From positions 1-38,491 of the IMG/VR virus record IMGVR_UViG_3300029893_000036: a DNA stretch of 38,491 nucleotides; one strand, 5' to 3'. Numbering within the stretch: position 1 is the first letter of the stretch; each line of letters begins with the position of its first letter. The translations under genes were made by a program, and so were the position numbers. The DNA is from a virus. The notes under the pieces are model-generated. The model worked only from the letters and a program-made list of their open reading frames with translations. It was not told where the DNA came from and did no database searches. Below, piece by piece: positions 60 through 38,220 of the stretch.

Positions 60-251
60 GTCCGGCCCCGCCATGGCGGCAACCCGGTTTTCCGGCCCAT
101 GGCGGCAAATCCACGGCAACCCGGTTTTCCGGGCCCATGGCGGCGTTTTCCGGCCCATGGCGGCGTATGGTAGCCCGAACGTCCAAAACCCCGTCAAACG
201 CCCGTTAAACGCGATTGCGGGGCATGTGGATAACGCATGGATTTATCCACA
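1..251. repeat. Left copy of near-terminal direct repeat
   Basis: This stretch is repeated at the other end of the window (38221-38491). Both copies begin with the same two hairpin terminators and end with the same block, from about 180 here (GTCCAAAACCCCGTC onward) through the first DnaA box at 243-251. The middle part differs: it is built from imperfect short units around CCCGGTTTTCCGG and CCCATGGCGGC in different number and order, and the T-runs differ by one base (10 versus 9, 8 versus 7). This fits a circular or terminally redundant phage genome, but the mismatch means it is not a simple exact overlap. Confidence 0.85.
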
Positions 252-275
252 GAGTTATCCACAGAGTTATCCACA
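225..275. other. Cluster of four perfect DnaA boxes (candidate replication origin)
   Basis: TTATCCACA, the consensus high-affinity bacterial DnaA box, occurs at 243-251, 255-263 and 267-275 on the plus strand and as its complement TGTGGATAA at 225-233. The last three lie in a 12-bp register with unit GAGTTATCCACA. The region is non-coding, follows terminators, and is followed by an AT-rich run (481-502) and 11-bp direct repeats (577-647), an arrangement typical of DnaA- or Rep-dependent origins. Origin function is inferred. Host DnaA binding would be unusual for a lytic phage and more typical of plasmids or phage-plasmids. Confidence 0.6.
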
Positions 276-304
276 ACCCCACCCGACTGAGCAGGCCTAT
301 AGCA

Positions 305-344
305 AATCTCCGGCGCATTACGGGCTGGTAATCCGTGGGCAAAA
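305..344. repeat. 40-bp palindromic element, copy 1
   Basis: Left arm AATCTCCGGCGCATTAC (305-321), loop GGGCTG, right arm GTAATCCGTGGGCAAAA. It is in the non-coding origin-like region and shares core ATTAC-N6-GTAAT and the outer CTCC/GTGGG blocks with the other copies. Confidence 0.75.
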
Positions 345-480
345 CCCTCCTCCTGCTGTTTCCTCGGCGTTACCTGCGATTGTCCTGCAAGTTTCCTGCG
401 AATATCGGGCAAGTTTCTGGTGTTTGCTGTTTTCGGAACCACCCCCCGTCCCATCCGTTCTGTCTGCGAGTTCTCCTGTT

Positions 481-502
481 GTAAAATTTTTTTTTGTTTA
501 AA
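481..502. other. AT-rich run between DnaA boxes and iterons
   Basis: A block with nine or more consecutive T flanked by A/T-rich bases stands out in otherwise GC-rich surroundings. It lies 205 bp after the DnaA boxes and 75 bp before the iterons, so it is a candidate DNA unwinding element. It could also be a simple homopolymer slip site. Positions 345-480 and 503-570 show no gene or other structure I can support. Confidence 0.3.
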
Positions 503-576
503 GCCGTATCAACCGGGAAGGACAAGGGGTGGGGGGTGGCTCCGATTATAGCGAACCCCAAAAACGCGCGGGTTAT

Positions 577-647
577 TCGCAGAACAATCGCAGAACAATC
601 GCAGGAAAATCGCGCATTCGCAGAACAATCGCAGGAAAATCGCGCAT
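577..647. repeat. 11-bp iterons, including a 30-bp tandem duplication
   Basis: TCGCAGAACAA occurs at 577-587, 588-598 and 618-628, and the variant TCGCAGGAAAA at 599-609 and 629-639, each block ending TCGCGCAT (610-617, 640-647). Positions 588-617 and 618-647 are exact 30-bp tandem copies. The 11-bp spacing places units on one face of the helix, as for initiator-binding iterons, or for operators of the promoter that starts 18 bp further on. Confidence 0.7.
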
Positions 648-775: not shown

Positions 776-1201
776 ATGGCACACCAATTCACGAAGGAAC
801 ACCTCATCCTCCATGCGGTTTGGAGGAAAGCTTTCACCGAGGGGCAAGTAACAATCCCTGTCAAATCCCAATCAGACGCCACCCGGCTTCGCTTCAGCCT
901 GTATAACTCCGTCAGGCCTGTGCGGGAGGGGAAAGTGGTTTCCCCCGACCTCCTGCAGGCAGTGCAGGAATGCTCGGTGCGAGTTGAAGGGCTGAGCGTT
1001 GTGATCCAGCTTAAGGCAAACACGGAATTGATGCGGGCCATCGCGGCATCGCTTGGCGGCACGGAAGCACTGGAAGCGGCAACGGCCATTGCCCCGACCT
1101 CCGCTGAGACACAGGAGATCGAGGATAGCCAGCGAAAACTTCTCGAGAAACTCGAGCAGGATGCGCAGCCTTCCCGCGTGACACCATATTACACTCGCTG
1201 A
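776..1201 (+). CDS. Early protein of unknown function, 141 aa
   Basis: First gene after the origin-like region. I do not recognise the family. The start at 776 (MAHQFTKEHL) is chosen because GAAAGGA lies 5 nt upstream; an upstream in-frame ATG at 665 sits inside the promoter. The protein is soluble, without signal or membrane segment. Residues 1-100 look like a compact alpha/beta domain, followed by an alanine-rich stretch and a charged C-terminal helix (about 115-130, rich in Glu and Lys). It is followed after 12 nt by the next gene, so both are probably cotranscribed from the 665 promoter. Being first in the early arm suggests a host-takeover or replication-control role, but nothing in the sequence proves it. 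Confidence 0.8.
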   Translation: MAHQFTKEHLILHAVWRKAFTEGQVTIPVKSQSDATRLRFSLYNSVRPVREGKVVSPDLLQAVQECSVRVEGLSVVIQLKANTELMRAIAASLGGTEALEAATAIAPTSAETQEIEDSQRKLLEKLEQDAQPSRVTPYYTR

Positions 1202-1213
1202 GAGGTTTCCGCT

Positions 1214-1531
1214 ATGCCGATTTGGTCAGACACGCACAGGCCCGGTGACTATGCACAGCCTTTCCACCTTCCATACCTGAATGGGCCTGGGAAGTTTCTT
1301 ATTGCATCGTCGCCTGATGAAAAGGACGTGCGCCGCGAGGGAAAGCGGTTCAACGCCTTCAAGGCCTCGCTTCGACGTTACACTATGCATCCGACTGCGC
1401 AACGTGCAACGAAACTTTCCGCTCGAATCTCCTACGAAAAGGAGGGCCGGCTTTGGGGGGCGTGGGTCACGACGACTTGGAATTCGACACTGGTTGAAGA
1501 GGTCGAAAAGCTTGTTTTCAACATTCCGTAG
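1214..1531 (+). CDS. Small basic early protein of unknown function, 105 aa
   Basis: Starts 12 nt after the preceding gene with GAGAGG 9 nt upstream. The product is rich in Arg and Lys in its middle (about residues 36-75), has no Cys cluster and no hydrophobic segment, and ends TWNSTLVEEVEKLVFNIP. The basic character would fit nucleic-acid binding, but no known fold is recognisable. It shares the 665 promoter with the gene before it and is separated from the next gene by a new promoter (1559). Confidence 0.7.
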   Translation: MPIWSDTHRPGDYAQPFHLPYLNGPGKFLIASSPDEKDVRREGKRFNAFKASLRRYTMHPTAQRATKLSARISYEKEGRLWGAWVTTTWNSTLVEEVEKLVFNIP

Positions 1532-1558
1532 TTTTTACGAAGACATGCGCGAAACCTC

Positions 1559-1587
1559 TTGACGGGCTTAGCTCTCCCTGCTACAGT
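1559..1587 (+). promoter_or_regulatory. Early promoter before the 182-aa gene
   Basis: TTGACG (1559-1564), 17 bp, TACAGT (1582-1587). TGCGCGAAAC at 1546-1555 precedes the -35 box by 3 nt, as at the 665 promoter. The leader that follows contains a GCGGGG/CCCCGC hairpin at about 1603-1629 before the strong TAAGGAG ribosome-binding site. Confidence 0.6.
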
Positions 1588-1682
1588 TCATCCATCGACG
1601 GCAAACGCGGGGCATACCGGCAAGCACCCCGCAGCCATCGACCAACCCTGTTAAATGCCTGCCAACCTTAAGGAGAGTTGAA

Positions 1683-2231
1683 ATGTCTGCAAAGCTTGAA
1701 GCCACCGTGGAAACTGTAACCATGTCCGATGGCCGCATCGTCGACTTCGCCGGCAAGCGCAAGCTGCTCAAGGAGTCGTCCGTCACCGCCGACGGCAAGG
1801 TTGCCGTGCGCCTGGACTTCCGCAATGGCGAAACCCGCCTGTTCACCATCCCCGACGCGCTGCTGAACAAGTTCGCGGCTCACGGTGCAGAGCAGAAGCT
1901 GGGTGATGAAATCGCCGGCCTGAACGACGTTGAGGATTGCGTCCTGGCCGTGGATGAGCTGATCGACCGCCTGTATAACGGCGAGTGGAGCGTCAAGCGC
2001 GAAGCCAACGGCATGGCCGGAACCTCGGTTCTGGTTCGCGCCTTGGTCGAGCACACCGGCAAGACTGTGGATGCCATCAAGACCTTCCTGGCCGGCAAAT
2101 CCCAAGCCGAAAAGGTCGCCCTGCGCAACAACCCGAAGATCAAGCCGATCGTCGAGCGCATCGAGGCCGAGAAGGCTTCGAAGAAGGCCAACGTCGATAC
2201 CGACGCGATGCTGGGCGAATTGGAAGGTTAA
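1683..2231 (+). CDS. Early phage protein, 182 aa, paralogue of the gene at 37384
   Basis: Monocistronic unit with its own promoter (1559), leader hairpin, strong ribosome-binding site (TAAGGAGAG, 6 nt from ATG) and terminator (2296). The N-terminal half (1-70) is beta-rich and the rest helical. From about residue 85 it aligns with the 170-aa product of 37384-37896: IDRLYNGEWS matches YDRLLAGQWN, then KTVDAIKTFLAGKSQAEKV matches KTVEELKAFLADRSDAEKA, and both end DTDAMLxELE. The family resembles hypothetical proteins I associate with other proteobacterial phages; its function is unknown. The isolated, strongly signalled transcription unit suggests a highly expressed early product. Confidence 0.85.
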   Translation: MSAKLEATVETVTMSDGRIVDFAGKRKLLKESSVTADGKVAVRLDFRNGETRLFTIPDALLNKFAAHGAEQKLGDEIAGLNDVEDCVLAVDELIDRLYNGEWSVKREANGMAGTSVLVRALVEHTGKTVDAIKTFLAGKSQAEKVALRNNPKIKPIVERIEAEKASKKANVDTDAMLGELEG

Positions 2232-2295
2232 GCCTCCCCCGGTCCCGGCTGGGCAACGCCGGGCGTAACCAGTGCTGCGTCAGCGCCTGGACTAA

Positions 2296-2331
2296 CCCCT
2301 GCAGGATTCTGACCCCCTGCAGGGGTTTTTT
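2296..2331 (+). terminator. Rho-independent terminator
   Basis: CCCCTGCAG (2296-2304) pairs with CTGCAGGGG (2317-2325), followed by TTTTTT (2326-2331). It ends the 182-aa gene's transcript. Confidence 0.85.
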
Positions 2332-2379
2332 ACTTCGCGTCGTGTAGGCAAGTGTTTTTGGTAGAGGTTGGTTACTTGA

Positions 2380-2409
2380 TTGACGCGGTGGTTATTTCCG
2401 GGGTATTAT
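2380..2409 (+). promoter_or_regulatory. Promoter overlapping a palindromic element
   Basis: TTGACG (2380-2385), 18 bp, TATTAT (2404-2409). The -10 box is the inner end of the left arm of the 40-bp palindrome at 2393-2432, so a protein bound there would block it. It probably drives the run of small genes from 2478. Confidence 0.55.
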
Positions 2410-2432
2410 TACGGTGTAATGCGTGGGCGTTA
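2393..2432. repeat. 40-bp palindromic element, copy 2
   Basis: Left arm TATTTCCGGGGTATTAT, loop TACGGT (2410-2415), right arm GTAATGCGTGGGCGTTA. It is intergenic and overlaps the -10 box of the 2380 promoter. Confidence 0.7.
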
Positions 2433-2477
2433 CATCAAACCTGTATCTCAGGCAACAACCAAGAAAGGCTCAGAACT

Positions 2478-3053
2478 ATGCAACCAATCAAAGAGGAACT
2501 CCCAGACTTCGACGACCTCGACGCGCTGCTGGAAGAGTCCACAGCCATTGCCAACGCAAAGCGGGCGCAGAAACAGGGCCGCAAGCTCACCGCCGAGCAG
2601 GCAGACATTCTCGAAGCCAACCGCCTTGCCGAACAGATGCAAGTCTGGGAGCCGGTCGAAGCCGTGGCGCACTTCATCCACACCACTTGCTTCTGCGGGC
2701 ACGAATTCAGACGGTTTAATGCGTGGTATAAGCTCCTCGAACACCGCCGGCAAGACTCCCGCCGACTCGTTCGCTGCGACGATCACGAAGGTCTGCCCTC
2801 AAGCCAGTATATCACACAGGAACAGGTAGGTTACTGCCACGAATGTCTTAGCAATGTCGGACTGCCACCCGCAAACCTCGAAGAGCACTCGGTGCTGACA
2901 AGCCTCGGCGAACCACTTGAGCAAGACAACGGGCAGATGGAACTGGAACTCCTGGCGGGGGAAGCCCAAGGCGACGTGATGCTGGCGGAGCTGGACGAGG
3001 CCGAAGCCGTCGAAGCCGTCGAAGCCGAGGAGATCGAAGATGAAGCTCTTTGA
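2478..3053 (+). CDS. Acidic zinc-finger-like early protein, 191 aa
   Basis: The start at 2478 (MQPIKEELPDFDD) has GAAAGG 9 nt upstream; the longer frame from 2352 crosses the promoter. The N-terminus has an acidic DFDDLDALLEES segment. A central region has CFCGHEF (about 70-76) and, some 45 residues later, YCHECL, together a plausible four-Cys zinc site. The last 60 residues are very acidic, with repeated EAVEAVEAEE. It opens a tightly packed run of overlapping small genes. I do not recognise the family; a DNA-mimic or RNA-polymerase-binding role is possible but unproven. Confidence 0.75.
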   Translation: MQPIKEELPDFDDLDALLEESTAIANAKRAQKQGRKLTAEQADILEANRLAEQMQVWEPVEAVAHFIHTTCFCGHEFRRFNAWYKLLEHRRQDSRRLVRCDDHEGLPSSQYITQEQVGYCHECLSNVGLPPANLEEHSVLTSLGEPLEQDNGQMELELLAGEAQGDVMLAELDEAEAVEAVEAEEIEDEAL

Positions 3054-3192
3054 ACGTCACCCCTGGATTACCCTGCTCCTGTGCCTGCTGGCTTACGCCA
3101 TTGTCAGCACAATGGATTATGAAGACGCCCGTCGAGAGGAATGCGCCAGGCAGAACCTTTCCTACAATTCTCAAAAGGATACCTGCGAATGA
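3040..3192 (+). CDS. Small single-pass membrane protein, 50 aa
   Basis: Overlaps the end of the preceding gene by 14 bp, with GGAG at 3029-3032, 7 nt before ATG. Sequence features: basic N-terminus MKLFERHP, hydrophobic segment WITLLLCLLAYAIVST (about 9-24), then an acidic outer part starting MDYEDARREEC with two further polar Cys-containing segments and a final TCE. This layout (short membrane anchor or signal followed by a DYxDA stretch and paired Cys) resembles small periplasmic-facing proteins seen in other proteobacterial phages. Its stop overlaps the next start (ATGA). Confidence 0.65.
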   Translation: MKLFERHPWITLLLCLLAYAIVSTMDYEDARREECARQNLSYNSQKDTCE

Positions 3193-3392
3193 GCACAGTG
3201 CTCTGCATTATCAAGTCGGAGACGAAGTTGCAGGCCTCAAACGAAGCCACGACTTTGACGATTGACTTGCCGCTTGACCATCCGGCAGCGAAGCTTTTCC
3301 CGCCCGGCAAGGCCGTTGTCTTTGCCAAGTGCCGTGTCGCCGACGGTCAAGTAACCATCGTCAACCCCTGCAAACCCTGGAAAGGAAAGTGA
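3189..3392 (+). CDS. Small early protein of unknown function, 67 aa
   Basis: The start at 3189 overlaps the previous stop (ATGA), which suggests translational coupling; AAGGA lies about 9 nt upstream. The product (MSTVLCIIKSETKLQ...) alternates hydrophobic and polar residues and should be mostly beta-strand, with a proline-rich middle (DLPLDHPAAKLFPPGK). No known motif. A longer reading from 3141 runs through the upstream gene and has no ribosome-binding site. Confidence 0.65.
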   Translation: MSTVLCIIKSETKLQASNEATTLTIDLPLDHPAAKLFPPGKAVVFAKCRVADGQVTIVNPCKPWKGK

Positions 3393-3393
3393 A

Positions 3394-3564
3394 ATGATAG
3401 AATCTATCAAGCAAATCCTGATGCGTCGGGATGAAATGTCTGCGGACGAGGCGGAGGAGCTTATACAAGAAGCTCGCGAAGCCGTTGCCGAAGGGCAAGA
3501 CCCGGAAGAAGTTTGCTGTGACTATTTCGGCCTTGAGCCTGATTACATTTGGGAGCTACTGTAA
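3394..3564 (+). CDS. Small conserved acidic phage protein, 56 aa
   Basis: ATG at 3394, one base after the preceding stop, with AAAGGAAAG upstream. The product begins MIESIKQILMRRDEMSADEA, is helical and strongly acidic, and ends FGLEPDYIWELL. This pattern (helix with EAEELIxEAR, then DPEEVxxDxFGLEPDYI) is one I recognise from many phage and prophage small proteins of unknown function. It is too short for most automatic ORF calls, but coding is supported by spacing, overlap with neighbours and the family pattern. Confidence 0.75.
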   Translation: MIESIKQILMRRDEMSADEAEELIQEAREAVAEGQDPEEVCCDYFGLEPDYIWELL

Positions 3565-3642
3565 TGCCTCGCCAACTTCCTGAATGGCTAAGTCAACCAT
3601 TCATAATATTGTTCACAATGTAACTTGGAAGGAGTAGTAACT

Positions 3643-3849
3643 ATGCCTCGCCCCAGAAAAGCAATACGCCCAGTTGAAAAGAACATCTCCCTCCCCGAAG
3701 ACCTCGTCGCCCGCGTGGATCTTGAACTGTATAGCGACCTCGAAGGCAAAGTTCCCTTCGGTGCGTGGCAGCGGTATGTTGAGGGGCTGATCCGCGCTGA
3801 CCTCGAACGCCGTGCGCAAGGGAAGGGGGTGCCCAATGGATCACGCTGA
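3643..3849 (+). CDS. Ribbon-helix-helix DNA-binding protein, 68 aa
   Basis: The start at 3643 has AAGGAG 8 nt upstream. The basic N-terminus (MPRPRKAIRPVEK) leads into a beta strand NISLPEDL, then two helices (VARVDLELYSDLE; AWQRYVEGLIRADLERRAQ), the ordinary MetJ/Arc-type ribbon-helix-helix layout in which the strand enters the DNA major groove as a dimer. It is a good candidate for a transcription regulator of the early genes, and a possible reader of one of the palindromes in this genome, though no target is shown. The next gene starts inside its 3' end. Confidence 0.75.
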   Translation: MPRPRKAIRPVEKNISLPEDLVARVDLELYSDLEGKVPFGAWQRYVEGLIRADLERRAQGKGVPNGSR

Positions 3850-4036
3850 CATCACCCAAGCCCGGCAAGAAGCCGAAGACGCCCTCCGCGCCCGGTATGC
3901 GGCGAAGCCCCAGGCTGCCGTCCGGCAAAGCCACTGCAACTGCGGCGAACCCATCCCCGAGGTCAGGCAAGCCTACGGCTTCACCAACTGCATTGACTGC
4001 GCAGAAGTCGCTGAGCGCGGTTCAAGGAGACGCTGA
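3836..4036 (+). CDS. TraR/DksA-type zinc finger protein, 66 aa
   Basis: The start at 3836 (MDHADITQAR) follows AAGGGGG by 6 nt. The N-terminal helix is followed by a four-Cys finger, CNCGEPIPE at about 42-50 and CIDC at about 55-58, with the R-x-A-Y/x-G-x-x-x-C spacing of the DksA/TraR C-terminal finger. Phage and plasmid TraR-like proteins bind the RNA polymerase secondary channel and mimic DksA plus ppGpp, so this gene may redirect host transcription during infection. Clear motif; effect on transcription inferred. Confidence 0.8.
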   Translation: MDHADITQARQEAEDALRARYAAKPQAAVRQSHCNCGEPIPEVRQAYGFTNCIDCAEVAERGSRRR

Positions 4037-4037
4037 C

Positions 4038-4367
4038 ATGACAAAGCCAAAACACAGACACACTAAGGTCTGCTACTGCTCGGCTTACAAGTTCCCACAC
4101 CGAGCCGGGGGTGGAAAGTGTCAAGGGCCGGGGGATCTGCTATGCAGTGCTTGCGGCGAGGTTGCTGAAGACACTTCCGTCGACTTCGGCATCGGGGCTT
4201 ATGAATACTGGGGGGCCTGGGGCGTGGATCGGAATGTCCAGTGGGTTTCCCGTTGCTGCGAGGCCACACTGCTCAAAAACACTCCCGGCAAACCTGAAGC
4301 CTCTCCACCGGAGCCTGACTATGATGACTATGATGACTATGATGACTATGATGATTATGATGATTAA
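4038..4367 (+). CDS. Cys-rich protein with acidic YDD-repeat tail, 109 aa
   Basis: The start at 4038 follows AAGGAGA. The N-terminal 85 residues carry clustered Cys (CYC near 12-14, CQ, LLCSACGE, SRCCE), suggesting one or two zinc sites. The C-terminus consists of Tyr-Asp-Asp triplets repeated five to six times, encoded by a 9-bp tandem repeat (about 4317-4364). The tail is extremely acidic and may imitate DNA or tether a basic partner; the tandem repeat can also expand or contract by slippage. Unknown family. Confidence 0.65.
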   Translation: MTKPKHRHTKVCYCSAYKFPHRAGGGKCQGPGDLLCSACGEVAEDTSVDFGIGAYEYWGAWGVDRNVQWVSRCCEATLLKNTPGKPEASPPEPDYDDYDDYDDYDDYDD

Positions 4368-4600
4368 CAAGTGGCACATCCGTTTCCTTCGCCTTGCACG
4401 GGAAGTTTCCTCCTGGTCGAAAGACCCTTCAACCAAGGTCGGCTGCGTGATCGTCGATCAGTCTCGGCGGGTCGTTAGCCTCGGCTTCAACGGCTTGCCC
4501 TCCGGGCTGGCAAAACGCCCGCCTCGACTTCTACTTCGAGCTCCTTGACGATGAAGAACTCGAAACCCTCAACTACCACGTTTACGAAGGAAACCTGTAA
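4357..4600 (+). pseudogene. Truncated dCMP deaminase fused out of frame to another gene's 3' end
   Basis: From 4357 or 4360, the frame reads NKWHIRFLRLAREVSSWS, then KDPSTKVGCVIVD and GFNGLPSG: the well-known N-terminus of phage deoxycytidylate deaminase. It stops matching at about 4507, before the catalytic HAE and PCxxC zinc motifs, and runs into a stop at 4546-4548. A different frame from 4508 to the TAA at 4598-4600 encodes WQNARLDFYFELLDDEELE and NYHVYEGNL, which looks like the genuine C-terminus of another protein. The simplest reading is a deletion that joined two genes. An assembly join is possible. The remaining product cannot deaminate dCMP. Confidence 0.7.
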
Positions 4601-5862
4601 TGTCACTCACACTCGAACAAGGCATTGCGCTGGAAGCAATCAACGACTTTCTCCGTGATCCCGAAAAGCAGTTCTTCCTCCTTGGCGGTTACGCCGGAAC
4701 GGGGAAAACCTACTGCATCCAGCACCTCGTCCCGCTTGTCCGCGGCCGCTTGATCTTCACCGCCCCGACGAACAAGGCGACCAAGGTCCTCCGCGACACG
4801 CTCACAACCCAGGAGTATAAACCCGAGTGCCGGACAATCTACAGCTTGCTGGGCCTCCGCCTCGAAGCCAACGGGGAGGTTAAGGAACTCGCTATGCCCG
4901 AAGATCCGTTGGACCTGTCCCACTACCGTGCAGTGATCGTGGACGAAGCCTCGATGATTAACGCGAACCTGATGAAGTACATTCGCCAGACCGCCGACAC
5001 CCAGAACATCAAGTTCATCTTCATGGGCGATCCGGCGCAGTTGCCTCCGGTCGGCGAGGCCCGTTCCCCGGTCTGGACTCAATGCCACGCCGCAGCGGAA
5101 CTGCGAACCGTCATGCGCTACGACAACCAGATCCTGGCCCTGGCCACTAGCCTCCGTGCCCAGGTCGACCACCCTGCCCCGAAGTTCATCCGCAAGACTG
5201 ACAATGCCGAAGGCGAAGGTGTTTGGGTTTGCAGGGAAGGGGAGTTCGAGCAGCGTATCCTCGACGCGGCGGGACAAGGCCGGTTCAGCACAGCCAACTG
5301 CGCGAAGGCAATCGCCTGGCGGAACGTCACTGTCGATGCCCTTAACCGTCGCATCCGGCAGCGAATTTTCGACAACGCGGCCTCCGCCATGTGGCTGCCT
5401 GACGACCGGATCATCCTGCTCGAACCGGCTAGAGACCTCAACAACGAGACGGTCGCCACCACCGACGACGAAGGTCGTGTGACAAGGGTCGAGGAGGAAT
5501 GGCACCCGACCTGGCGGGAGTTCAAGGTCTGGCGGATTAGCGTCACGACTGACGACAACCGCGTGATCGTCCTTCGAGTCCTCCACGACGACTCCCGCCA
5601 AGCCCATGACCGCCGGGCCGAGGAACTCGCTCAAGCCGCCCGGCTCGATCGCCGCAAGTGGGGATCGTTCTGGGACTTCAAGGAAGCCCTCCACAAGGTC
5701 CGGCACTCCTACGCCATCACCGCTCACCGTGCGCAGGGCTCCACCTACGAAGCGGCTTTCGTGGACTGGAAAGACATCCTTGCTAACCGCAATCGCAGCG
5801 AGGCCTTCCGTTGCCTCTACGTCGCCTGCACCCGCCCGAAGAAGGAGTTGTATCTTGGCTAA
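4600..5862 (+). CDS. RecD/Dda-like SF1B DNA helicase, 420 aa
   Basis: ATP-dependent 5'-3' DNA helicase expected to act in replication start or recombination. Motifs: Walker A GYAGTGKT (30-37), motif Ia TAPTNKA (54-60), Walker B VDEAS (114-118), motif III GDPAQLPPVG (143-152), and near the C-terminus AHRAQGST (375-382) and VACTRPKKELYLG (408-420), the usual motifs V/VI of UvrD_C_2/RecD2 helicases. The length matches T4 Dda (about 440 aa). The region from about 230 to 350 is less typical. The start codon overlaps the preceding TAA (TAATG), with GAAGGA upstream. Strong call for the family; exact pathway inferred. Confidence 0.92.
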   Translation: MSLTLEQGIALEAINDFLRDPEKQFFLLGGYAGTGKTYCIQHLVPLVRGRLIFTAPTNKATKVLRDTLTTQEYKPECRTIYSLLGLRLEANGEVKELAMPEDPLDLSHYRAVIVDEASMINANLMKYIRQTADTQNIKFIFMGDPAQLPPVGEARSPVWTQCHAAAELRTVMRYDNQILALATSLRAQVDHPAPKFIRKTDNAEGEGVWVCREGEFEQRILDAAGQGRFSTANCAKAIAWRNVTVDALNRRIRQRIFDNAASAMWLPDDRIILLEPARDLNNETVATTDDEGRVTRVEEEWHPTWREFKVWRISVTTDDNRVIVLRVLHDDSRQAHDRRAEELAQAARLDRRKWGSFWDFKEALHKVRHSYAITAHRAQGSTYEAAFVDWKDILANRNRSEAFRCLYVACTRPKKELYLG

Positions 5863-5989
5863 GGCCCTTGCCCTGGCCCTTGCGCTTGCGGTAGCGATGC
5901 CTGCCTGCGCGCCCGTGCCGGGGAGTGTTTGGAAAAAAGCCCGCAAGTATAGTGAGAAAAGGCTTGCGGGGCTTAGCAGTCCTCGGTAA
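5855..5989 (+). CDS. Small putative lipoprotein with TTG start, 44 aa
   Basis: A TTG at 5855 preceded by AAGGAG (5842-5847, 7 nt spacing) opens a frame overlapping the helicase end by 8 bp. The product has a signal-like run (M)AKALALALALAVAMPAC, where the Cys after MPA resembles a lipobox, then a short basic tail ending LAGLSSPR. It could be a small outer-membrane lipoprotein such as an o-spanin or exclusion protein, though it lies far from the lysis genes. The repeated CTTGCC/GCGCTTGC DNA could also create a chance signal-like stretch. Confidence 0.45.
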   Translation: MAKALALALALAVAMPACAPVPGSVWKKARKYSEKRLAGLSSPR

Positions 5990-6026
5990 CATCCATGTAT
6001 TACCACACGTTAATGAAGGATACTTG
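5987..6026. repeat. Possible decayed 40-bp palindromic element
   Basis: Core ATTAC (5999-6003), loop CACACG, TTAAT (6010-6014), with ATCC and GGAT in symmetric outer positions. It starts at the stop codon of the small lipoprotein frame and its right arm holds the GAAGGA ribosome-binding site of the next gene, as in the better copies. Arm similarity to the consensus is weak. Confidence 0.35.
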
Positions 6027-6028
6027 AA

Positions 6029-6253
6029 ATGGCACAATCACCTGAAATGCAGGCCAAGATTCAACTCTGGCGCCAGAAAGCCCGCGAGGGCACGCTGACC
6101 CAAGAAGAAATGCGCGAGGCCATCGCCGCCCTGCGCCAAGATCGTGTCAGAGCCGCGAGCGCTAGCGCGACCTCCCGCGGAAAGAGAGTCACTACCCGAG
6201 CCAAGGCAAACATCAATTCCGATGACCTGCTCGGGGAACTGGATAACCTGTAA
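6029..6253 (+). CDS. Small helical early protein with shared acidic C-tail, 74 aa
   Basis: GAAGGA precedes the ATG by about 9 nt. Residues 1-45 are helical and charged (KIQLWRQKAREGTLTQEEMR); 45-60 are basic and Ser/Thr/Ala-rich; the end reads NINSDDLLGELDNL. That tail resembles the ends of the 1683 and 37384 products (DTDAMLGELEG, DTDAMLDELE), although the rest is unrelated. Probable role: adaptor or binding protein with a C-terminal docking peptide. Family not recognised. Confidence 0.75.
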   Translation: MAQSPEMQAKIQLWRQKAREGTLTQEEMREAIAALRQDRVRAASASATSRGKRVTTRAKANINSDDLLGELDNL

Positions 6254-6277
6254 CTCAACCACGAAAGGCTCACGAAA

Positions 6278-6550
6278 ATGAAAGTTACGAAACTGGAAAT
6301 CAAACGGCAGGAATCCTACGAAGCCGACGCCGGGCAGCTCAAAGGCATCGTCACCCTCACCGGAACGGCTGGGCAGCAATTCCTCGTTCTGTCCCCCGGC
6401 TCTATCAGCCGGATCTTCGAGGTCATCAAGGAAGACGCCGTGGCACAAGCCAAGACGCAGGCTAAGGCCGCTGACCGCGCACTGCAGGACGCCGCTGACG
6501 AGCCGCTGCTCATTACCGCCTCCGAAGTGAAGGAGCTGCCAAATGTCTAA
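6278..6550 (+). CDS. Small protein of unknown function, 90 aa
   Basis: AAAGG upstream of ATG. The first 50 residues look beta-rich (MKVTKLEIKRQESYEADAGQ, then LKGIVTLTGTAGQQFLVLSP), and residues 50-75 form a long Ala-rich helix (IFEVIKEDAVAQAKTQAKAA). It overlaps the nuclease gene by 8 bp, so the two are probably translated together. No recognised domain. Confidence 0.75.
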   Translation: MKVTKLEIKRQESYEADAGQLKGIVTLTGTAGQQFLVLSPGSISRIFEVIKEDAVAQAKTQAKAADRALQDAADEPLLITASEVKELPNV

Positions 6551-7496
6551 GCCCATATTCCCTCACGCCATCGACTCTACGATGTTGGCCACCTTCCGTT
6601 CTTGCCCTCAAAAGTTCTTCCGCCAGTATGTTCAGCACTGGAAGCCAAAGGCCGAGAGCGTCCATCTGGTGGCCGGCGGAGCCTTCGCCTCCGGGATTGA
6701 AAAGGCTCGCCGCGCGTTTTATGAGCGAGGCGTGTCCGCTCAAGACTCCGAAGCCATCGGCCTCCAGGCCCTGATCGAGCACTACGGAGACTTCGAGTGT
6801 CCTCCTGATTCCGCAAAGTCCCTCGAACGCACCTGCGGCGCGCTGGAGTTCTATTTCCAGAACTACCCGCTGGGCGGGGATGGCATGGAGCCAGTGCTGA
6901 TGACAAGCGGCAAGCGGGGGATTGAGTTCTCCTTCGCAGAGCCTCTGCCTTTCGCCCATCCAGTTTCCGGCGACCCTATCCTCTACACAGGCCGGGCTGA
7001 CGCGATCATGAACTTCGCTAACGGGGTCTACGTCGTCGATGAAAAGACCGTTTCGAGCCTCGGGGCGTCTTGGTCCCGGCAGTGGGAAATGCGGGCGCAG
7101 TTCACGGGGTATTGCTGGGCTTGCCGGCAAGCCGGGCTTGAGCCTACAGGCACAATCATCCGTGGCGTGTCCATCCTGAAAGCCAAGTATGATACCCAAC
7201 AAGCCATCACCTACCGCGCTCCGTGGGAGATTGATCGCTGGCTTCAGCAAACCCTCCGCGACCTCGAACGCATGGTTAAAATGTGGCGGGATGACTGGTA
7301 CGACTATGCCCTCGACCACGCTTGCGCGGAGTATGGCGGGTGCTCCATGCTCCAGGTCTGCAAATCCCCCGACCCGGAGTCCTGGCTGGAAACTTATTTT
7401 GAACAGCGTGTCTGGGACCCGCTGGCGCGGGAGGAAATGACGCTGGAGCAGTGGGAAGCGAGCTGGAATAACACCCCGACTATTACCCCGGCGTAA
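6543..7496 (+). CDS. Cas4/RecB-like PD-(D/E)XK nuclease with Fe-S cysteines, 317 aa
   Basis: Predicted DNA exonuclease of the PDDEXK superfamily, as in phage recombination and end processing. Visible motifs: GRAD (150-153), DEK (166-168) within VVDEKTV, and Q186/Y190 in QFTGY, which together form the metal site. C21 near the N-terminus plus C261, C267 and C273 near the C-terminus match the split four-Cys iron-sulphur cluster of Cas4/AddB-type enzymes. No CRISPR array is present, so this is the stand-alone phage type. It acts plausibly with the ATPase at 8935 and the binding protein at 9923. The last residues, TPTITPA, are encoded by a 40-bp palindromic element that also supplies the stop. Confidence 0.88.
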   Translation: MSKPIFPHAIDSTMLATFRSCPQKFFRQYVQHWKPKAESVHLVAGGAFASGIEKARRAFYERGVSAQDSEAIGLQALIEHYGDFECPPDSAKSLERTCGALEFYFQNYPLGGDGMEPVLMTSGKRGIEFSFAEPLPFAHPVSGDPILYTGRADAIMNFANGVYVVDEKTVSSLGASWSRQWEMRAQFTGYCWACRQAGLEPTGTIIRGVSILKAKYDTQQAITYRAPWEIDRWLQQTLRDLERMVKMWRDDWYDYALDHACAEYGGCSMLQVCKSPDPESWLETYFEQRVWDPLAREEMTLEQWEASWNNTPTITPA

Positions 7497-7509
7497 TCCC
7501 CATGAGTTA
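7470..7509. repeat. 40-bp palindromic element, copy 3
   Basis: Left arm AACACCCCGACTATTAC, loop CCCGGC (7487-7492), right arm GTAATCCCCATGAGTTA. The TAA inside GTAAT (7494-7496) is the stop codon of the Cas4-like gene. Confidence 0.75.
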
Positions 7510-7533
7510 CCGTCAGTAAGGAGGTTTTATGCA

Positions 7534-7896
7534 ATGTATAAACAGCTATTCTTCATCGAAGGCAGGCTCCTGGCCGAGGCTCCGCGCGGACTCATCATGC
7601 GCCATGCGACCTTCATGGAACCGACAAGTGACCTCTACTTCTGCGGCCTTTGCGGTGACGTGTATGCCCGGTTCCCTTGCCTTCGGCCTGACGGTTCCTC
7701 CACTCCCTGGCAGTCCTACCGCGGCATATGCCGGAAGTGCGGGGTAACGCATCAGCGGTGGCTGTCGGAGTGGCCGGGGTCCGTCTGGCGGTCCTGGGAC
7801 AAAGAATTCCTCGCAGCACTCCCTATGCCTGTGCTGCAGTGGGAAACCGAACGGCACATTGAATCTTGGGAAAGGATACCAAATGGCTACCAGTAG
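7534..7896 (+). CDS. Zinc-ribbon protein of unknown function, 120 aa
   Basis: A strong AAGGAGG (7518-7524) precedes two nearby ATGs; the one at 7534 opens the long frame. CGLCG (about 37-41) and CRKCG (about 66-70) form a four-Cys zinc ribbon; the rest is Trp- and Pro-rich (WLSEWPGSVWRSWDKEF). It could be a small nucleic-acid-binding or transcription-modifying protein. It lies between the nuclease and MazG genes and overlaps the latter by 14 bp. Confidence 0.75.
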   Translation: MYKQLFFIEGRLLAEAPRGLIMRHATFMEPTSDLYFCGLCGDVYARFPCLRPDGSSTPWQSYRGICRKCGVTHQRWLSEWPGSVWRSWDKEFLAALPMPVLQWETERHIESWERIPNGYQ

Positions 7897-8299
7897 CAAA
7901 TCGAAGCAAGCAAACGCAGCGGTGGAGGCCCACTCTGCCCTAGCCAATCGCATGGCGGACGCACAGCGAGTCCTCGGACCGACGCTCACTGCAGTGCTCG
8001 AAACCCAGGCCACGCTGATCAGTCAGTTCATGGCCGCGCAGGGTTTCTGGAAATCGGACAACACGCGGTGGAAGATCGCCCTGATGCACTCCGAACTTTC
8101 CGAGGCCCTGGAAGCCGACCGCAAGTCCCTCAACGCGGAGCATATCCCCGGCTTTACCGGTGTGGAGGAAGAACTCGCTGATGTTATCATCCGCGTCCTT
8201 GACTTCGCCGGCCACCACCAGCTCCGCCTCGGCGAAGCCCTCAGCGCGAAGATCGCTTACAACCTGACCCGTCCATTCAAGCACAGCAAGGCCTATTAA
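7883..8299 (+). CDS. MazG-like nucleotide pyrophosphohydrolase, 138 aa
   Basis: Predicted to hydrolyse (d)NTPs, or possibly ppGpp-like nucleotides, to monophosphates and pyrophosphate. The metal-binding signature is visible as HSELSEALEADRK, with ExxE spacing, and later EEELADVIIRVLD, with the ExxD pair; the end KIAYNLTRPFKH is also typical. The start at 7883 (MATSSKSK) has AAAGGA 6 nt upstream; the longer frame lacks one. Phage MazG enzymes are thought to adjust nucleotide pools or host stress signalling. Confident family call, substrate unknown. Confidence 0.88.
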   Translation: MATSSKSKQANAAVEAHSALANRMADAQRVLGPTLTAVLETQATLISQFMAAQGFWKSDNTRWKIALMHSELSEALEADRKSLNAEHIPGFTGVEEELADVIIRVLDFAGHHQLRLGEALSAKIAYNLTRPFKHSKAY

Positions 8300-8319
8300 C
8301 CTTCCCCGGAGACCCTGCC

Positions 8320-8454
8320 ATGGACATTCTGTTAAGTATTATCCTCATAGCTATTGCACTCTGGGTGGTAAGCTGGTTAGCTATCGGTATGGGCATGGCA
8401 TGGGTCAAGCTCGCTGATAAATTTCACAACATCACTAAAGGAAAGTGGCAATGA
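8320..8454 (+). CDS. Small membrane protein, 44 aa
   Basis: GGAG at 8308-8311, 8 nt before ATG. MDILLSIILIAIALWVVSWL is a strong transmembrane segment continuing to about residue 28, followed by a short basic tail ending KGKWQ. It is AT-richer than the genes before it. The frame ends in TGA overlapping an ATG (8451), which begins a frame of only eight codons (MKVISIGN), possibly the remnant start of a gene displaced by the HNH insertion that follows. Confidence 0.6.
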   Translation: MDILLSIILIAIALWVVSWLAIGMGMAWVKLADKFHNITKGKWQ

Positions 8455-8473
8455 AAGTAATTTCCATCGGGAA

Positions 8474-8502
8474 TTGACAAGGTCTACAGTCAGTTGTAGT
8501 AT
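8474..8502 (+). promoter_or_regulatory. Promoter before the first HNH gene
   Basis: TTGACA (8474-8479), exactly 17 bp, TAGTAT (8497-8502), close to the sigma-70 consensus. It would drive the HNH gene and the ATPase gene after it. Confidence 0.6.
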
Positions 8503-8531
8503 TACATCAACATTTTCCGATGGAGATACTT

Positions 8532-8966
8532 ATGCAAGACAAGGAAAGATTTTTAGCTAAGATTCGAAAAGAAACCTCTGGCTGTTGGGTATGGCAAGCT
8601 GCTTATGATGCTGCCGGTTATGGGCGGTTTTGGCTTGGTAGGAGAATGCAACCGACTTCACAAGCGGCTTACAGGTTGTTTGTAGGAGAAATTCCTCAAG
8701 GACTTTGTGTGTTACATACTTGTAATAACAAAGGTTGTTGCAACCCTGCCCACCTTCGACTAGGCACCCATGCAGAAAACATGGCAGATTTGGCGGTTGC
8801 TGGTAACAACAGTTTACGGAAACTTTCGGCTGCAAGAGCTTTAGAACTGCGAAAGCAGGGTAAAACTTTAGCAGCTATTGGGGCAGAGGTAGGCGCCTCT
8901 GCGCAGGCAGTTCATCAACTTTTGGAGCGTACTTATGGAAAAGGTTCAGCAAAACGAAGCGGCTAA
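8532..8966 (+). CDS. HNH homing-type endonuclease, 144 aa
   Basis: Free-standing HNH_3-type nuclease. The core is visible: GCWVWQAAYDAAGYGRF, then LCVLHTCNNKGCCNPAHLRLGTHAENM, containing the HxxxxxxCxNPxHL signature, and a C-terminal helix-turn-helix-like region (about 105-135, AIGAEVGASAQAVHQLLE) that would recognise DNA. Start 8532 is preferred over 8520 because GGAG (8522-8525) is 6 nt upstream. The gene is AT-richer than its neighbours, has its own promoter and overlaps the ATPase start by 32 bp, all signs of a mobile gene inserted beside a conserved replication gene. Confidence 0.88.
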   Translation: MQDKERFLAKIRKETSGCWVWQAAYDAAGYGRFWLGRRMQPTSQAAYRLFVGEIPQGLCVLHTCNNKGCCNPAHLRLGTHAENMADLAVAGNNSLRKLSAARALELRKQGKTLAAIGAEVGASAQAVHQLLERTYGKGSAKRSG

Positions 8967-9789
8967 ATCGGTGCTTCCTGGATTTAATGTGTTACTTATG
9001 GGGCCGGCAGGCACCGGCAAAACCCACTCCATCGGCACCCTTGTCGACCAAGGCTTTGAAGTCTTCTACCTCGCCCTCGAGTCGGGCTTGGAAGCCCTCC
9101 TCGGCTACTACACTGACCGCGGCCTGCCCATCCCCGACAACCTTCACTGGCACATGCTCAAGGCTCCGCAGGCTTCCTTCATGGAACTCCTGGGCAACGC
9201 GCAAAAGATCAACACGCTGTCCCTAGACTCCCTTGCCAAGATGACCGACCCGAACCGTTCCAAGCACAACCGCTTCATCGAACTGCTCAAAGCCCTCAAC
9301 GACTTCCCCTGCGACCGTTCGGGCAAAACTTTTGGCCCGGTGAATACCTGGACGCCTTCGCGAGTCCTCGTCGTTGACGGCATGACAGGCCTCGGTCAGT
9401 GTGCCATGTCCCTGGTTGTCGGCGGGAAGGCAGTCAAGTCGCAAAGCGACTGGGGTATTGCCCAAGACCAAGTCGAAAAGCTCCTTCGTATGCTTTGCGA
9501 TAGCTGCCCCTGCCACTTCGTCCTCTTGTCCCACGTTGAGCGCGAGATGGATCAAATCCTTGGCGGGGTGAAGCTAACAGTCTCGACCCTTGGCCGTGCC
9601 CTTGCCCCCAAAATCCCGTCGATGTTCTCTGACGTGATCCTCGCCGTCCGCCAAGGCGACAAATGGACTTGGGACACTGCCAACGTGCAAGCCGACCTCA
9701 AAACCCGCAACCTCCCGATCCGCGCCGACAACCCGCCGACCTTCGCAGGGATCGTCGCCAAATGGAAGGCGCGTGGGGGTGTGAGCTAA
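8935..9789 (+). CDS. Sak4-like RecA-fold ATPase, 284 aa
   Basis: Predicted phage recombination ATPase. Walker A GPAGTGKT at 23-30, Walker B-like RVLVVDGMTGLG, and LLSHVERE, a sensor-type strand followed by polar residues, match the AAA_24/Sak4 group, which anneals or exchanges single strands with an SSB partner. The gene at 9923 has properties of that partner. GGAG lies 9 nt before ATG 8935, inside the HNH gene. Base composition changes near 9000: the first 20 codons resemble the HNH gene and the rest the surrounding C-ending codon usage. Confidence 0.85.
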   Translation: MEKVQQNEAAKSVLPGFNVLLMGPAGTGKTHSIGTLVDQGFEVFYLALESGLEALLGYYTDRGLPIPDNLHWHMLKAPQASFMELLGNAQKINTLSLDSLAKMTDPNRSKHNRFIELLKALNDFPCDRSGKTFGPVNTWTPSRVLVVDGMTGLGQCAMSLVVGGKAVKSQSDWGIAQDQVEKLLRMLCDSCPCHFVLLSHVEREMDQILGGVKLTVSTLGRALAPKIPSMFSDVILAVRQGDKWTWDTANVQADLKTRNLPIRADNPPTFAGIVAKWKARGGVS

Positions 9790-9806
9790 GACTTCACCGA
9801 AGGTCA

Positions 9807-9835
9807 TTGACATGCTGTAGCATCCCTCATACCAT
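9807..9835 (+). promoter_or_regulatory. Promoter for the ssDNA-binding candidate
   Basis: TTGACA (9807-9812), 17 bp, TACCAT (9830-9835). It leaves a leader of about 80 nt before ATG 9923. Confidence 0.55.
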
Positions 9836-9859
9836 TGAATTTCCCCCGCATGACGGTTG

Positions 9860-9903
9860 GCGACTGACTGTAAAGCGGGTTTCGTTCCAGTCGCATTTTC
9901 TCT
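9860..9903 (+). promoter_or_regulatory. Leader hairpin, possible attenuator
   Basis: GCGACTG (9860-9866) pairs perfectly with CAGTCGC (9888-9894), followed by ATTTTCTCT. It lies between the 9807 promoter and the TAAGGAG ribosome-binding site (9909-9915), so it could be an attenuator or simply a stable leader. Confidence 0.4.
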
Positions 9904-9922
9904 AACCTTAAGGAGCCTTACC

Positions 9923-10372
9923 ATGTTCGATCCCGAACAATTCCTCGACATGCAAGTTACTGAGTCCAATGACACCAAGACCATCCCCGTGCCGGTAGGC
10001 GAATACACCGCAGTTGCTGAAGAAGTCAAGTGCCGTCAGTGGCAGTCCAAGCAAGACCCGTCCAAGTCCGGCCTCACGCTCGACATTACCTGGAGCATCG
10101 ACGACAGCACAGTCAAGGAACTCCTCGGCCGCGACAAGGTCACCGTGCGTCAGGGCATCATGCTCGACCTCACCGATTCCGGTGGTCTGGACATGGGCAG
10201 GGGTCGCAACATCGGCCTGGGCCGTCTGCGCGAAGCCCTCAATCTCAATACCCCCGGCCAACCGTTCAGCTTCTCGATGGTCGCTGGCCGCATTGCGAAG
10301 GTTAGCGTCAGCCACCGCATCGACGGTGAGAACATCTACGCCGAAGTCAAGGGCGTGGCGAAGCTCGGTTAA
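9923..10372 (+). CDS. Probable single-stranded-DNA-binding (DUF669-like) protein, 149 aa
   Basis: Begins MFDPEQFLDMQVTESNDTKT with a strong TAAGGAG 7 nt upstream. The middle is beta-strand-rich (YTAVAEEVKCRQWQSKQ, SGLTLDITWSIDD) and includes a glycine-rich LDLTDSGGLDMGRGRNIGLG turn; the end is FSMVAGRIAKVSV. It follows the Sak4-like ATPase, where phages often carry an SSB or DUF669 protein, and has its own promoter as expected for an abundant binding protein. It lacks the acidic SSB C-tail. Function is inferred mainly from context. Confidence 0.6.
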   Translation: MFDPEQFLDMQVTESNDTKTIPVPVGEYTAVAEEVKCRQWQSKQDPSKSGLTLDITWSIDDSTVKELLGRDKVTVRQGIMLDLTDSGGLDMGRGRNIGLGRLREALNLNTPGQPFSFSMVAGRIAKVSVSHRIDGENIYAEVKGVAKLG

Positions 10373-10387
10373 TCGGAGGATACCACA

Positions 10388-10657
10388 ATGTCTGCTATTA
10401 CCCCCTCCGTAGGTCGCAAAGTCTGGTATTTCGGCAACAACGAACAGGCTGAACCTTGCGATGCCACCGTCATCAAAGTGCATGGCGAGCCGTCCCCGCA
10501 GTCTCCGGTCAATTTGTTCGTGATCGGGCCTGAAGGCGATACGTTTGTGAAAACTGAAGTAGTCGTCGGCAATGAGACTACCGAAGGTGCGCACTACCGC
10601 TGGATGCCTTATCAGCAGCAACAAGCGGCAAAGGTGGCTGAACCGAGGAAGCTGTAA
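10388..10657 (+). CDS. Conserved small phage protein, 89 aa
   Basis: The frame (MSAITPSVGRKVWYFGNNEQ) has an SH3-like beta pattern: GRKVWY near the start, a D/ATVIKVHGE strand, VNLFVIGPEGDTF, then HYRWMPYQQQQA near the end. This arrangement (GxxVWY ... VNLxVxxxxG ... WMPYQ) recurs in many phage proteins of unknown function, often downstream of replication genes. GGAG is present upstream, and the gene follows the preceding one after 15 nt. The structured region at 10670-10864 comes directly after it. Confidence 0.75.
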   Translation: MSAITPSVGRKVWYFGNNEQAEPCDATVIKVHGEPSPQSPVNLFVIGPEGDTFVKTEVVVGNETTEGAHYRWMPYQQQQAAKVAEPRKL

Positions 10658-10669
10658 AGCTTGAAGCGT

Positions 10670-10864
10670 GGCCCCGGCTATACGGGGCCCCTTAAGCAAG
10701 GGGATTCGCAAAAGCTGGTCGAGGGCAAAGCTCAGAGCCAGCACCATACAGACGGCACCGATTACGTGAGTCCCCTTCCTTAAGCCCTCGACAGGATGAG
10801 CCCCGGCGGCAGGCCAATTCGCAGTTGCCACTTGCTGTCGTGCCTGTTCGGGGGCTTTTCTTTT
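10670..10864 (+). ncRNA. Candidate structured RNA with pseudoknot-type pairing
   Basis: A hairpin GGCCCCG-GCTATA-CGGGGCC (10670-10689) is followed by segment A CTTAAGCAAGGGGA (10691-10704), which pairs with A' TCCCCTTCCTTAAG (10771-10784) at 13 of 14 positions. Segment B TCGAGGGC (10719-10726) lies inside that loop and is perfectly complementary to B' GCCCTCGA (10784-10791), just outside it. The order A-B-A'-B' is a pseudoknot, or else two alternative helices. A terminator follows (10799-10864). No convincing protein gene occupies the region. RNA function is inferred from these complementarities only. Confidence 0.5.
10799..10864 (+). terminator. Rho-independent terminator of the early arm segment
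   Basis: AGCCCC (10799-10804) pairs with GGGGCT (10851-10856) and inner CAGGC (10810-10814) with GCCTG (10842-10846); TTTTCTTTT follows. It ends transcription before the third HNH gene. Confidence 0.6.
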
Positions 10865-10894
10865 GACCTATACTTTCATGAAAGGCACTTGCCC

Positions 10895-11191
10895 ATGAAC
10901 CCGCGCCGTTATCGAACTCTTTACGAGTCGCGTTACATTACACCAGACTTAGACTTTTTTGTCTGCGCGTATTGTGGTGGCAAGCCTTCCTGTTTCGATC
11001 ACGTTCCCCCACTAGCCACTGTAGCAGCCTTCCCTCAAAAGAAGTTTAAGCATTACTGGCTCGTCCCAAGTTGCGGCTCTTGCAACCAAATTCTCGGCGG
11101 GCACTCCCTTCTCGTAACTCTTGCACAGCGTAAGGCTTACATGAAGCGGTATATTTCACGCCGGGAAAATGGCCGCGTTTTGGGGCGTTAA
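10895..11191 (+). CDS. Small HNH-type endonuclease, 98 aa
   Basis: The start at 10895 (MNPRRYRTLYESRYITP) has AAAGG 9 nt upstream. Zinc/HNH signature: CAYCGG (about 23-28), then CFDHVPPLA (His-containing catalytic segment), and SCGSCNQILGG (second Cys pair with Asn). The arrangement C-x2-C ... DHV ... C-x2-C-N fits a McrA-like HNH nuclease rather than the HNH_3 type of the two others here. It is small for a homing enzyme and may nick or cut DNA in replication, packaging or host degradation. It lies between the RNA-like region and the methyltransferase gene. Confidence 0.7.
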   Translation: MNPRRYRTLYESRYITPDLDFFVCAYCGGKPSCFDHVPPLATVAAFPQKKFKHYWLVPSCGSCNQILGGHSLLVTLAQRKAYMKRYISRRENGRVLGR

Positions 11192-11317
11192 AATGCCAAA
11201 CCCTATCCACGGAAAGCAAACCGCATGGCGGGCCGTTTCTGGCCCACGGCGGGGCATTCTCGCGCCCGTTTTCCGTCCCATTTCCGCCAACCACCGAAAC
11301 TCATAGGAGAAGCCCTC
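11192..11317 (+). other. Spacer resembling the terminal repeat, with a doubtful 37-codon frame
   Basis: The segment at about 11222-11256 (CATGGCGGGCC, CCCACGGCGGG) resembles the short units of the terminal repeats. A frame from ATG 11193 to TAG 11304-11306 (MPNPIHGKQTAWRAVSGPRR...) has no ribosome-binding site and may be chance. AGGAG at 11305-11309 serves the next gene. Confidence 0.35.
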
Positions 11318-12703
11318 ATGCACACCATCCCCTTAGCCGAAATCATCATCAAGCCCGAGCGTCAGCGGCAGGAATTCGATCCCGAAGCCCTGCAAGAGCT
11401 GAAAAACTCCATCGAGGATGGGCAGCTTCTCCACCCCCCGGTGCTCCGCAAGGAAGGCTCTGCCTGGGTGCTGGTCGCCGGCGAGCGTCGGCTGAAAGCC
11501 ATCAGCGAAATCTTCGAACTCGGAGGTTCGTTCAAGCACAACGGCGAGGTCTTTGCCGACGGCCTTGTCCCCTTCACAAACATCGGGGAACTGACCCTGC
11601 TTGAGGCCGAGGAAGCCGAACTCGACGAAAACCTCAAGCGTCGGGATTTGACTTGGCAAGAACACGCGGCAGCGGTTGCCCGGCTCCACGCCCTTCGCTC
11701 GATGCAAAAAGAAGGCAAGCGGGCCGAAGCTCTCGAAGCCATTGGGGAGGCCTCCAGTCCAGCCACCCCTGCCCACACCATCGCCGACACCGCCGAGGAA
11801 CTCACTGGCCGTCGGGACGGCTCTTACCAGGACTCCGTCCGCAAGGAAATCATCGTTGCGAAGCACCTCGACAACCCCGCCATCGCCAAAGCCAAGTCCG
11901 CTGACGAAGCCTTCAAAATCCTCAAGCGCGAGGAAGAGCGCAACCGCAACATCGAGTTGGCAAAAGTCGTCGGGGCTTCCTTCAACGCCGACAAGCACAC
12001 GCTGCTCAACATCAACTGCCTCGAGTATATGGCAGATCCAGCGAACGCCAGCAAGTTCGATGTGATCCTGACCGACCCGCCGTATGGCATGGGAGCACAA
12101 GACTTTGACGACGGCGGCGGTAAGTTCGATGGCATCGAGCACCACTACGATGACTCCTACGAGTCCTGGCAAAAGCTTATGCAGGCATGGTGTCCGCTGA
12201 CTTTCACCATTGCCAAGGCACAAGCCCACGCTTACGTTTTCTGCGACATTGACCGCTTCCACGAACTCAAGCGCTATATGGAAGCTGCGGGCTGGTATGT
12301 CTTCCGCACCCCGCTGATCAACCACAAGGTTAACTCCGGCCGCGTTCCTCTCCCTGACCAAGGTCCGCGCCGTCAGTATGAAATCCTGCTCTACGCGATC
12401 AAGGGTAAAAAACCCGTCACCCACATCTACCCTGATGTGATCTCCACCACTGGCGACGAAAACATGTCCCACGGCGCGCAGAAGCCTGTTGCCCTGTACC
12501 AGAACCTCTTGCAGCGCAGTGTCCGCCCCGGCGACAAGGTCATTGACTGCTTCGCAGGCACCGGTCCTATCTTCCCCGCCGCGCATACCTACCAGTGTGA
12601 GGCCACTGGCCTGGAAATGAACCCGGAATACTATGCCTTCTCCATGCGTCGCTTGACGGAGATCAAGCAAAACGATCAACTCGGCCTTGACCTGGGAGCG
12701 TGA
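11318..12703 (+). CDS. ParB-domain/DNA methyltransferase fusion, 461 aa
   Basis: Residues 1-110 form a ParB/Srx-like N-terminal domain (PERQRQEFDPEALQELKNSI ... VLVAGERRLKAI, with the GERR box at 55-58). Residues 110-215 are helical and contain KRRDLTWQEHA. From about 225 to the end is an S-adenosylmethionine-dependent DNA methyltransferase: TDPPYGMG with DPPY at 253-256, and FAGTG at 412-416. The DPPY-before-FxGxG order points to a beta-class N6-adenine or N4-cytosine enzyme. Start 11318 has AGGAG 8 nt upstream. ParB-MTase fusions occur in other phages; they could protect phage DNA from restriction or mark origins. Target site unknown. Confidence 0.88.
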   Translation: MHTIPLAEIIIKPERQRQEFDPEALQELKNSIEDGQLLHPPVLRKEGSAWVLVAGERRLKAISEIFELGGSFKHNGEVFADGLVPFTNIGELTLLEAEEAELDENLKRRDLTWQEHAAAVARLHALRSMQKEGKRAEALEAIGEASSPATPAHTIADTAEELTGRRDGSYQDSVRKEIIVAKHLDNPAIAKAKSADEAFKILKREEERNRNIELAKVVGASFNADKHTLLNINCLEYMADPANASKFDVILTDPPYGMGAQDFDDGGGKFDGIEHHYDDSYESWQKLMQAWCPLTFTIAKAQAHAYVFCDIDRFHELKRYMEAAGWYVFRTPLINHKVNSGRVPLPDQGPRRQYEILLYAIKGKKPVTHIYPDVISTTGDENMSHGAQKPVALYQNLLQRSVRPGDKVIDCFAGTGPIFPAAHTYQCEATGLEMNPEYYAFSMRRLTEIKQNDQLGLDLGA

Positions 12704-12704
12704 A

Positions 12705-12974: not shown

Positions 12975-12976
12975 CC

Positions 12977-37364: not shown

Positions 37365-37383
37365 TCACATTGAGGATGAAATC

Positions 37384-38205: not shown

Positions 38206-38220
38206 CCCCGCCCGCCCCGC

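Follow-up and report, generated by a model that had tools for sequence, protein, structure and literature searches.

Where does replication begin in a phage known only as an assembled sequence? For most metagenome-only phages the origin is unknown, and the question is raised here by a non-coding region near the left end of virus record IMGVR_UViG_3300029893_000036, analysed over its whole length of 38,491 bases (the window). A preliminary description of this DNA had pointed to DnaA boxes, an AT-rich run and 11-bp iterons, and had suggested either a host-DnaA-dependent replication start or a plasmid-like carrier state. We find that the region is built around an imperfect dyad (370-608, centre 489) whose arms, 370-452 and 526-608, are complementary at 65 of 90 positions, the next-best dyad anywhere in the 38.5 kb reaching only 44/90. 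From its anatomy and its recurrence in related phages we infer, with a probability of about 0.7, that this dyad is the phage's own theta-type (bidirectional) replication origin. Its computed parts, and the gene beyond it, are as follows.

370-460: left arm of the dyad, with degenerate inverted 11-bp iterons (starts 371, 382 and 393, - strand) followed by a C-rich tract at about 438-460; lag-11 autocorrelation z 5.1.
478-502, + strand: dyad core with a T9 run (487-495), proposed DNA unwinding element, from nearest-neighbour energies.
518-608: right arm, comprising a G-rich tract (about 514-539) and the beginning of the direct iteron array, from complementarity to the left arm.
575-637, + strand: five direct 11-bp iterons (AWTCGCAGRAM; starts 575, 586, 597, 616 and 627); lag-11 autocorrelation z 5.5.
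665-693, + strand: sigma-70-like promoter TTGACT-17-TAACGT, pointing away from the dyad, from sequence.
776-1201, + strand: first early gene (141 aa), candidate iteron-binding protein, with homologs downstream of the dyad in relatives.

From outside to inside the dyad thus consists of an iteron array, a C-rich or G-rich tract, and the T-run core. The AT-rich run and the five direct iterons had been described correctly, but the facing array of inverse-orientation repeats (371-403, three mismatches each) and the dyad itself had been overlooked. Two properties expected of an iteron origin are present: helically phased replicon-specific repeats, here of 11 bp, and a low-stability AT-rich element beside them, the core having lower stability than any other 25 bp in the whole window, though not the least stable at 40 or 60 bp. 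The origins of phage lambda and of iteron plasmids are typically made up of phased iterons and an AT-rich unwinding element, with accessory DnaA sites and supercoiling driven by a promoter (PMC5043065); the context of the dyad fits an origin.

Relatives were collected in two ways, by terminase (41 loci) and by the conserved protein encoded at 1683-2231 (80 loci); the latter replaced its neighbour, the 776-1201 family, which proved too divergent for a successful profile search of IMG/VR. The dyad was compared in 29 loci, the window included. In these the top-scoring dyad reaches 48-65/90, the next best usually 40-45, and lies upstream of the 776-1201 homolog, mostly by 210-340 bases (range 213-480 in the loci examined); a T-run of at least seven is found near its centre in 26 of the 29. 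Across the family the arms repeat most strongly at lag 11 (mean z 2.0, against 1.3 for lag 10, the next best), and a TTGAC[ACT] promoter motif lies between dyad and start codon in 19 loci, with 3.3 expected. The GenBank genome MW202489 carries a dyad of 58/90 centred at 38509, and shorter T-run-cored dyads occupy a comparable place in two cultured phages, Microcystis phage Mel-JY34 (26/30) and Vibrio phage VS-ABTNL-3 (24/30). No such dyad was found in the genomes of Tiera, BUCT555 or 119X, the last being the member scanned of the 119X/PaP2 group.

The arms themselves were matched within and between 26 genomes. In 25 of them the best match of an arm is its own partner; the sole exception, locus L009, is outscored by its nearest relative, the window. 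Mean complementarity is 57/90 within a genome, 32/90 between genomes and 30/90 after shuffling. Since arms are complementary within but not between genomes, both arms must have diverged together, and the comparison indicates that the dyad is conserved in its architecture and not in its sequence.

The surroundings of the dyad are also ordered. It lies near the point at which the genome divides into a + strand early block (about 776-16877: Dda-like helicase, exonuclease, Sak4-like protein, ParB-domain/methyltransferase fusion, family A DNA polymerase and a DUF3987/primase-type protein) and a - strand late block (about 18.3-36.9 kb: terminase, portal, capsid and tail genes), so that forks leaving it would run with transcription almost everywhere. 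Transcription is bounded on one side.

1-59, + strand: tandem intrinsic terminators (hairpins 1-17 and 35-51, each followed by a T-run), from sequence.

The hairpin and T-run units span 1-28 and 35-59, with a second copy at about 38219-38277, and a + strand ORF ending at 38205 precedes them. In 10 of 13 genomes terminator-like hairpins separate the dyad from the gene upstream, against 0.1 expected from shuffles. The terminators of the preliminary description are real, but they stand on one side of the region only and do not enclose it.

A mechanism that would accommodate these features begins with a phage-encoded initiator, for which the product of the adjacent gene 776-1201 is the best candidate, binding both inverted arrays of phased iterons. 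The facing arrays would wrap or bend the DNA, placing strain on the central T-run core until it opens, and helicase and polymerase would then be loaded in both directions, through the phage's DUF3987 protein, Dda-like helicase and family A polymerase, host proteins perhaps taking part as well. The TTGACT promoter, driving transcription that leaves the dyad, would generate negative supercoiling behind it, at the origin, while the terminators would keep upstream + strand transcription from entering the region.

Four observations weigh against an origin at the dyad. Several more distant relatives have the homologous early gene but lack a dyad ahead of it; the core T-run is short; and the AlphaFold model of the 776-1201 protein (pLDDT 83) gave no significant structural match in a fold search and no recognised DNA-binding fold. 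The fourth is GC skew, proposed earlier as a check and now computed: at -0.061 to the right of the dyad and +0.003 to the left it does not show the usual polarity, although it is confounded with gene direction and so helps neither way; we rejected it as an origin marker for that reason.

The preliminary description had placed host DnaA at the heart of initiation, on account of four boxes.

225-233 (-), 243-251 (+), 255-263 (+) and 267-275 (+): DnaA-box cluster, four perfect copies of TTATCCACA, the last three direct and in 12-bp register.

All four are as described. The whole window holds six perfect boxes, two of them contig-end duplicates, where 0.18 are expected and no shuffle reached six, so the boxes cluster beyond chance, as they should in a DnaA-dependent origin. 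Conservation with the origin is nevertheless lacking: among the 29 dyad loci only the window and L009 have a cluster, that of L009 having a single inverted box and two direct ones, in 11-bp register, and none is found in L010 and L170, next in kinship, whose adjacent gene is 87% identical. The cluster is real and probably functional; being absent from 27 of the 29 loci, it would be an accessory, lineage-specific addition, gained or lost within the group, through which host DnaA probably helps in opening or in helicase loading in this lineage. The origin interpretation of the earlier description is thus supported by comparative anatomy, but DnaA as its core mechanism is not.

Outside this phage group, at least 120 IMG/VR contigs carry tandem boxes spaced in the same 12-bp register. 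In Microvirus PQ006258.1 (L169, 1805-1838) three such boxes stand beside the replication initiator gene, just upstream of it, and are identical to 243-276 of the window at 34 of 34 bases. Neither this virus nor the IMG/VR contigs belong to the present group, and their arrays appear to have arisen or been gained independently of that in the window.

Of the other explanations for the dyad, the one that survives best is a regulatory operator or enhancer, at which a phage regulator bound to the phased repeats controls the early operon with no replication start. The conserved promoter just downstream, and a first gene encoding a small protein that could autoregulate, are what such a site would have. 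The dyad, however, is symmetric whereas the promoter is specific to one strand and side (18 vs 4, 2 and 1); the distance between the two varies from 115 to 286 bases; and an operator leaves unexplained both a 250-bp dyad with a melted-type core and terminators on the opposite side. We consider it unlikely.

Much less probable is a partition site or plasmid-type origin serving an extrachromosomal carrier state, perhaps through the product of 11225-12703. Iterons with DnaA boxes do recall plasmid origins, and that product has a ParB N-terminal domain (ParB_N), fused to an N6/N4 DNA methyltransferase; such fusions, however, occur also in phages not known as plasmids, and the DnaA cluster is not conserved. 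In the 40 proteins scanned, a set that omits a few small or structural ORFs, there is no integrase, as the preliminary description had said, and also no ParA or plasmid Rep; apart from the fused ParB_N, these proteins include none of the maintenance genes by which phage-plasmids are recognised. The suggested search for extrachromosomal copies in host genomes was run: a pattern-based search of 84,980 bacterial and archaeal GTDB genomes and a search of plasmids in PLSDB found no relatives, within the coverage of these databases. Pseudolysogeny has been reported in a distant relative, Pseudomonas phage Shea (Jamesmcgillvirus, close to PaP2), which persists as an episome (PMC13348215), but the Shea/PaP2 group shares with the window only the DUF3987/primase protein, at about 25% identity, and its scanned member lacks the dyad. 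The plasmid-like carrier state proposed earlier is accordingly unsupported, episomal carriage being conceivable only by this distant analogy. Separately, N6/N4 modification by the 11225-12703 product could have some bearing on the origin region.

A site for packaging or for a genome end (cos/pac or telomere-like), on which terminase or a resolvase would act, is about as improbable. The small-terminase gene lies about 1.4-2.5 kb away, and dyad symmetry is frequent in cos and telomere sites; against this, assembled genomes cross the dyad unbroken, with contig ends so scattered that the dyad falls at contig positions such as 17480, 36747, 11270, 19972, 9837, 24830 and 16233, no protelomerase was found among the proteins scanned, and cos sites are not built from phased iterons, a promoter and an AT-rich core. 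A structured RNA, which so long an inverted repeat might encode, can practically be dismissed: G-U pairs are no commoner than A-C mismatches (204 vs 225), so selection would act on DNA and not on an RNA hairpin, and the region has no Rfam match.

The ends of the contig fall in the same region.

38221-38491, + strand: contig overlap, a second copy of 1-251 (terminators, GGCCCATGGCGGC repeats and the first two DnaA boxes), from end-to-end alignment.

Positions 170-251 and 38410-38491 are identical, and 1-251 aligns with 38221-38491 at 84%, with differences in repeat number. The ends overlap, and therefore in the assembly the genome closes into a circle of about 38,240 bp, the contig having been cut inside the origin region. 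The two ends represent two alleles of the terminator region, which differ in how long the T-run is and how many GGCCCATGGCGGC and CGGCAACCCGGTTTTCCGG repeats they contain, through either population variation or assembly from two strains. Between terminators and DnaA boxes, at 62-165, lie short GC-rich repeats, four copies of CCATGGCGGC; several relatives carry GGC/CATGG motifs similar to them.

On the side of the terminators the preliminary description had placed a small DNA-binding regulator. The ORF in question (75 aa, 37978-38205) matched no PHROG or Pfam family and nothing in the 41 relatives tested, and its link to the origin region was dropped for want of conservation. The initiator candidate encoded on the other side, at 776-1201, evolves fast (its identity is 20-48% beyond the closest relatives), much as the iterons themselves do. 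A winged helix was considered for it, the order of helices and strands in the model being similar, and was rejected because no match supports it. Next to it stands the gene used for collecting relatives.

1683-2231, + strand: gene with a 182-aa product, better conserved than any other in the early region (identity 59-91% in 13 relatives).

Its product gave no significant match in a fold search and is paralogous to that of 37381-37896, across the origin region (hhalign E 3e-23). These two paralogs flanking the origin region share with a third early protein an acidic C-terminal tail, [IV][DN][TS]D[AD][ML]L[GD]EL[ED] (2196-2231, 6215-6253 and 37864-37896), possibly a common docking tail. Further along the early block an HNH endonuclease ORF (13602-13943) splits the DNA polymerase gene (12977-15642) in two: 12977-13672, the N part, corresponds to residues 1-203 and the C part, 13927-15642, to residues 207-778 of the single polymerase of MW202489. 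Rfam detected no group I intron in the interrupted gene at gathering score.

If the dyad is the origin, it is one that can be read from sequence alone, with a searchable signature in its symmetry, kept while the letters change and the arms change together. It would also yield a testable hypothesis, that a small and so far uncharacterised protein family functions at the origin, and would illustrate how fast an initiator and its sites can evolve together; the window equally cautions that conspicuous DnaA boxes may have been added locally, to a kind of origin that elsewhere does without them. The known kind to which it belongs is the iteron origin, and what is new is the variant arrangement; we found no described origin of the mirror-symmetric double-iteron kind in the open-access literature. 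That it amounts to a previously undescribed class of phage origin, in which iteron arrays mirror each other across a T-run, the 776-1201 protein represents a new family of initiators, and the arms change jointly so that every phage has a private initiator-origin pair, is a tentative suggestion that we think less likely than not.

Among known systems, the iteron plasmid origins (P1, F, RK2, pSC101, R6K gamma) share helically phased iterons, an AT-rich element and nearby DnaA boxes with the window; they differ in that the window has a direct array facing an inverted one and yielded no Rep-family initiator, and in that most relatives have no DnaA boxes. The lambda origin likewise has phage initiator sites as inverted repeats by an AT-rich region, with an activating promoter near (PMC5043065), but its repeats, four of 19 bp each, lie to one side only of the 40-bp AT-rich region, all within gene O, whereas in the window facing 11-bp arrays flank the core, the site is intergenic, and no O or P homolog was found. 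A further one is MW202489 (Bacteriophage sp. ctMlz233), a record without origin annotation and without DnaA boxes near its dyad, which nevertheless has the same gene order, a DUF3987 protein 73% identical to that of the window, and a dyad with a T-run upstream of the same gene.
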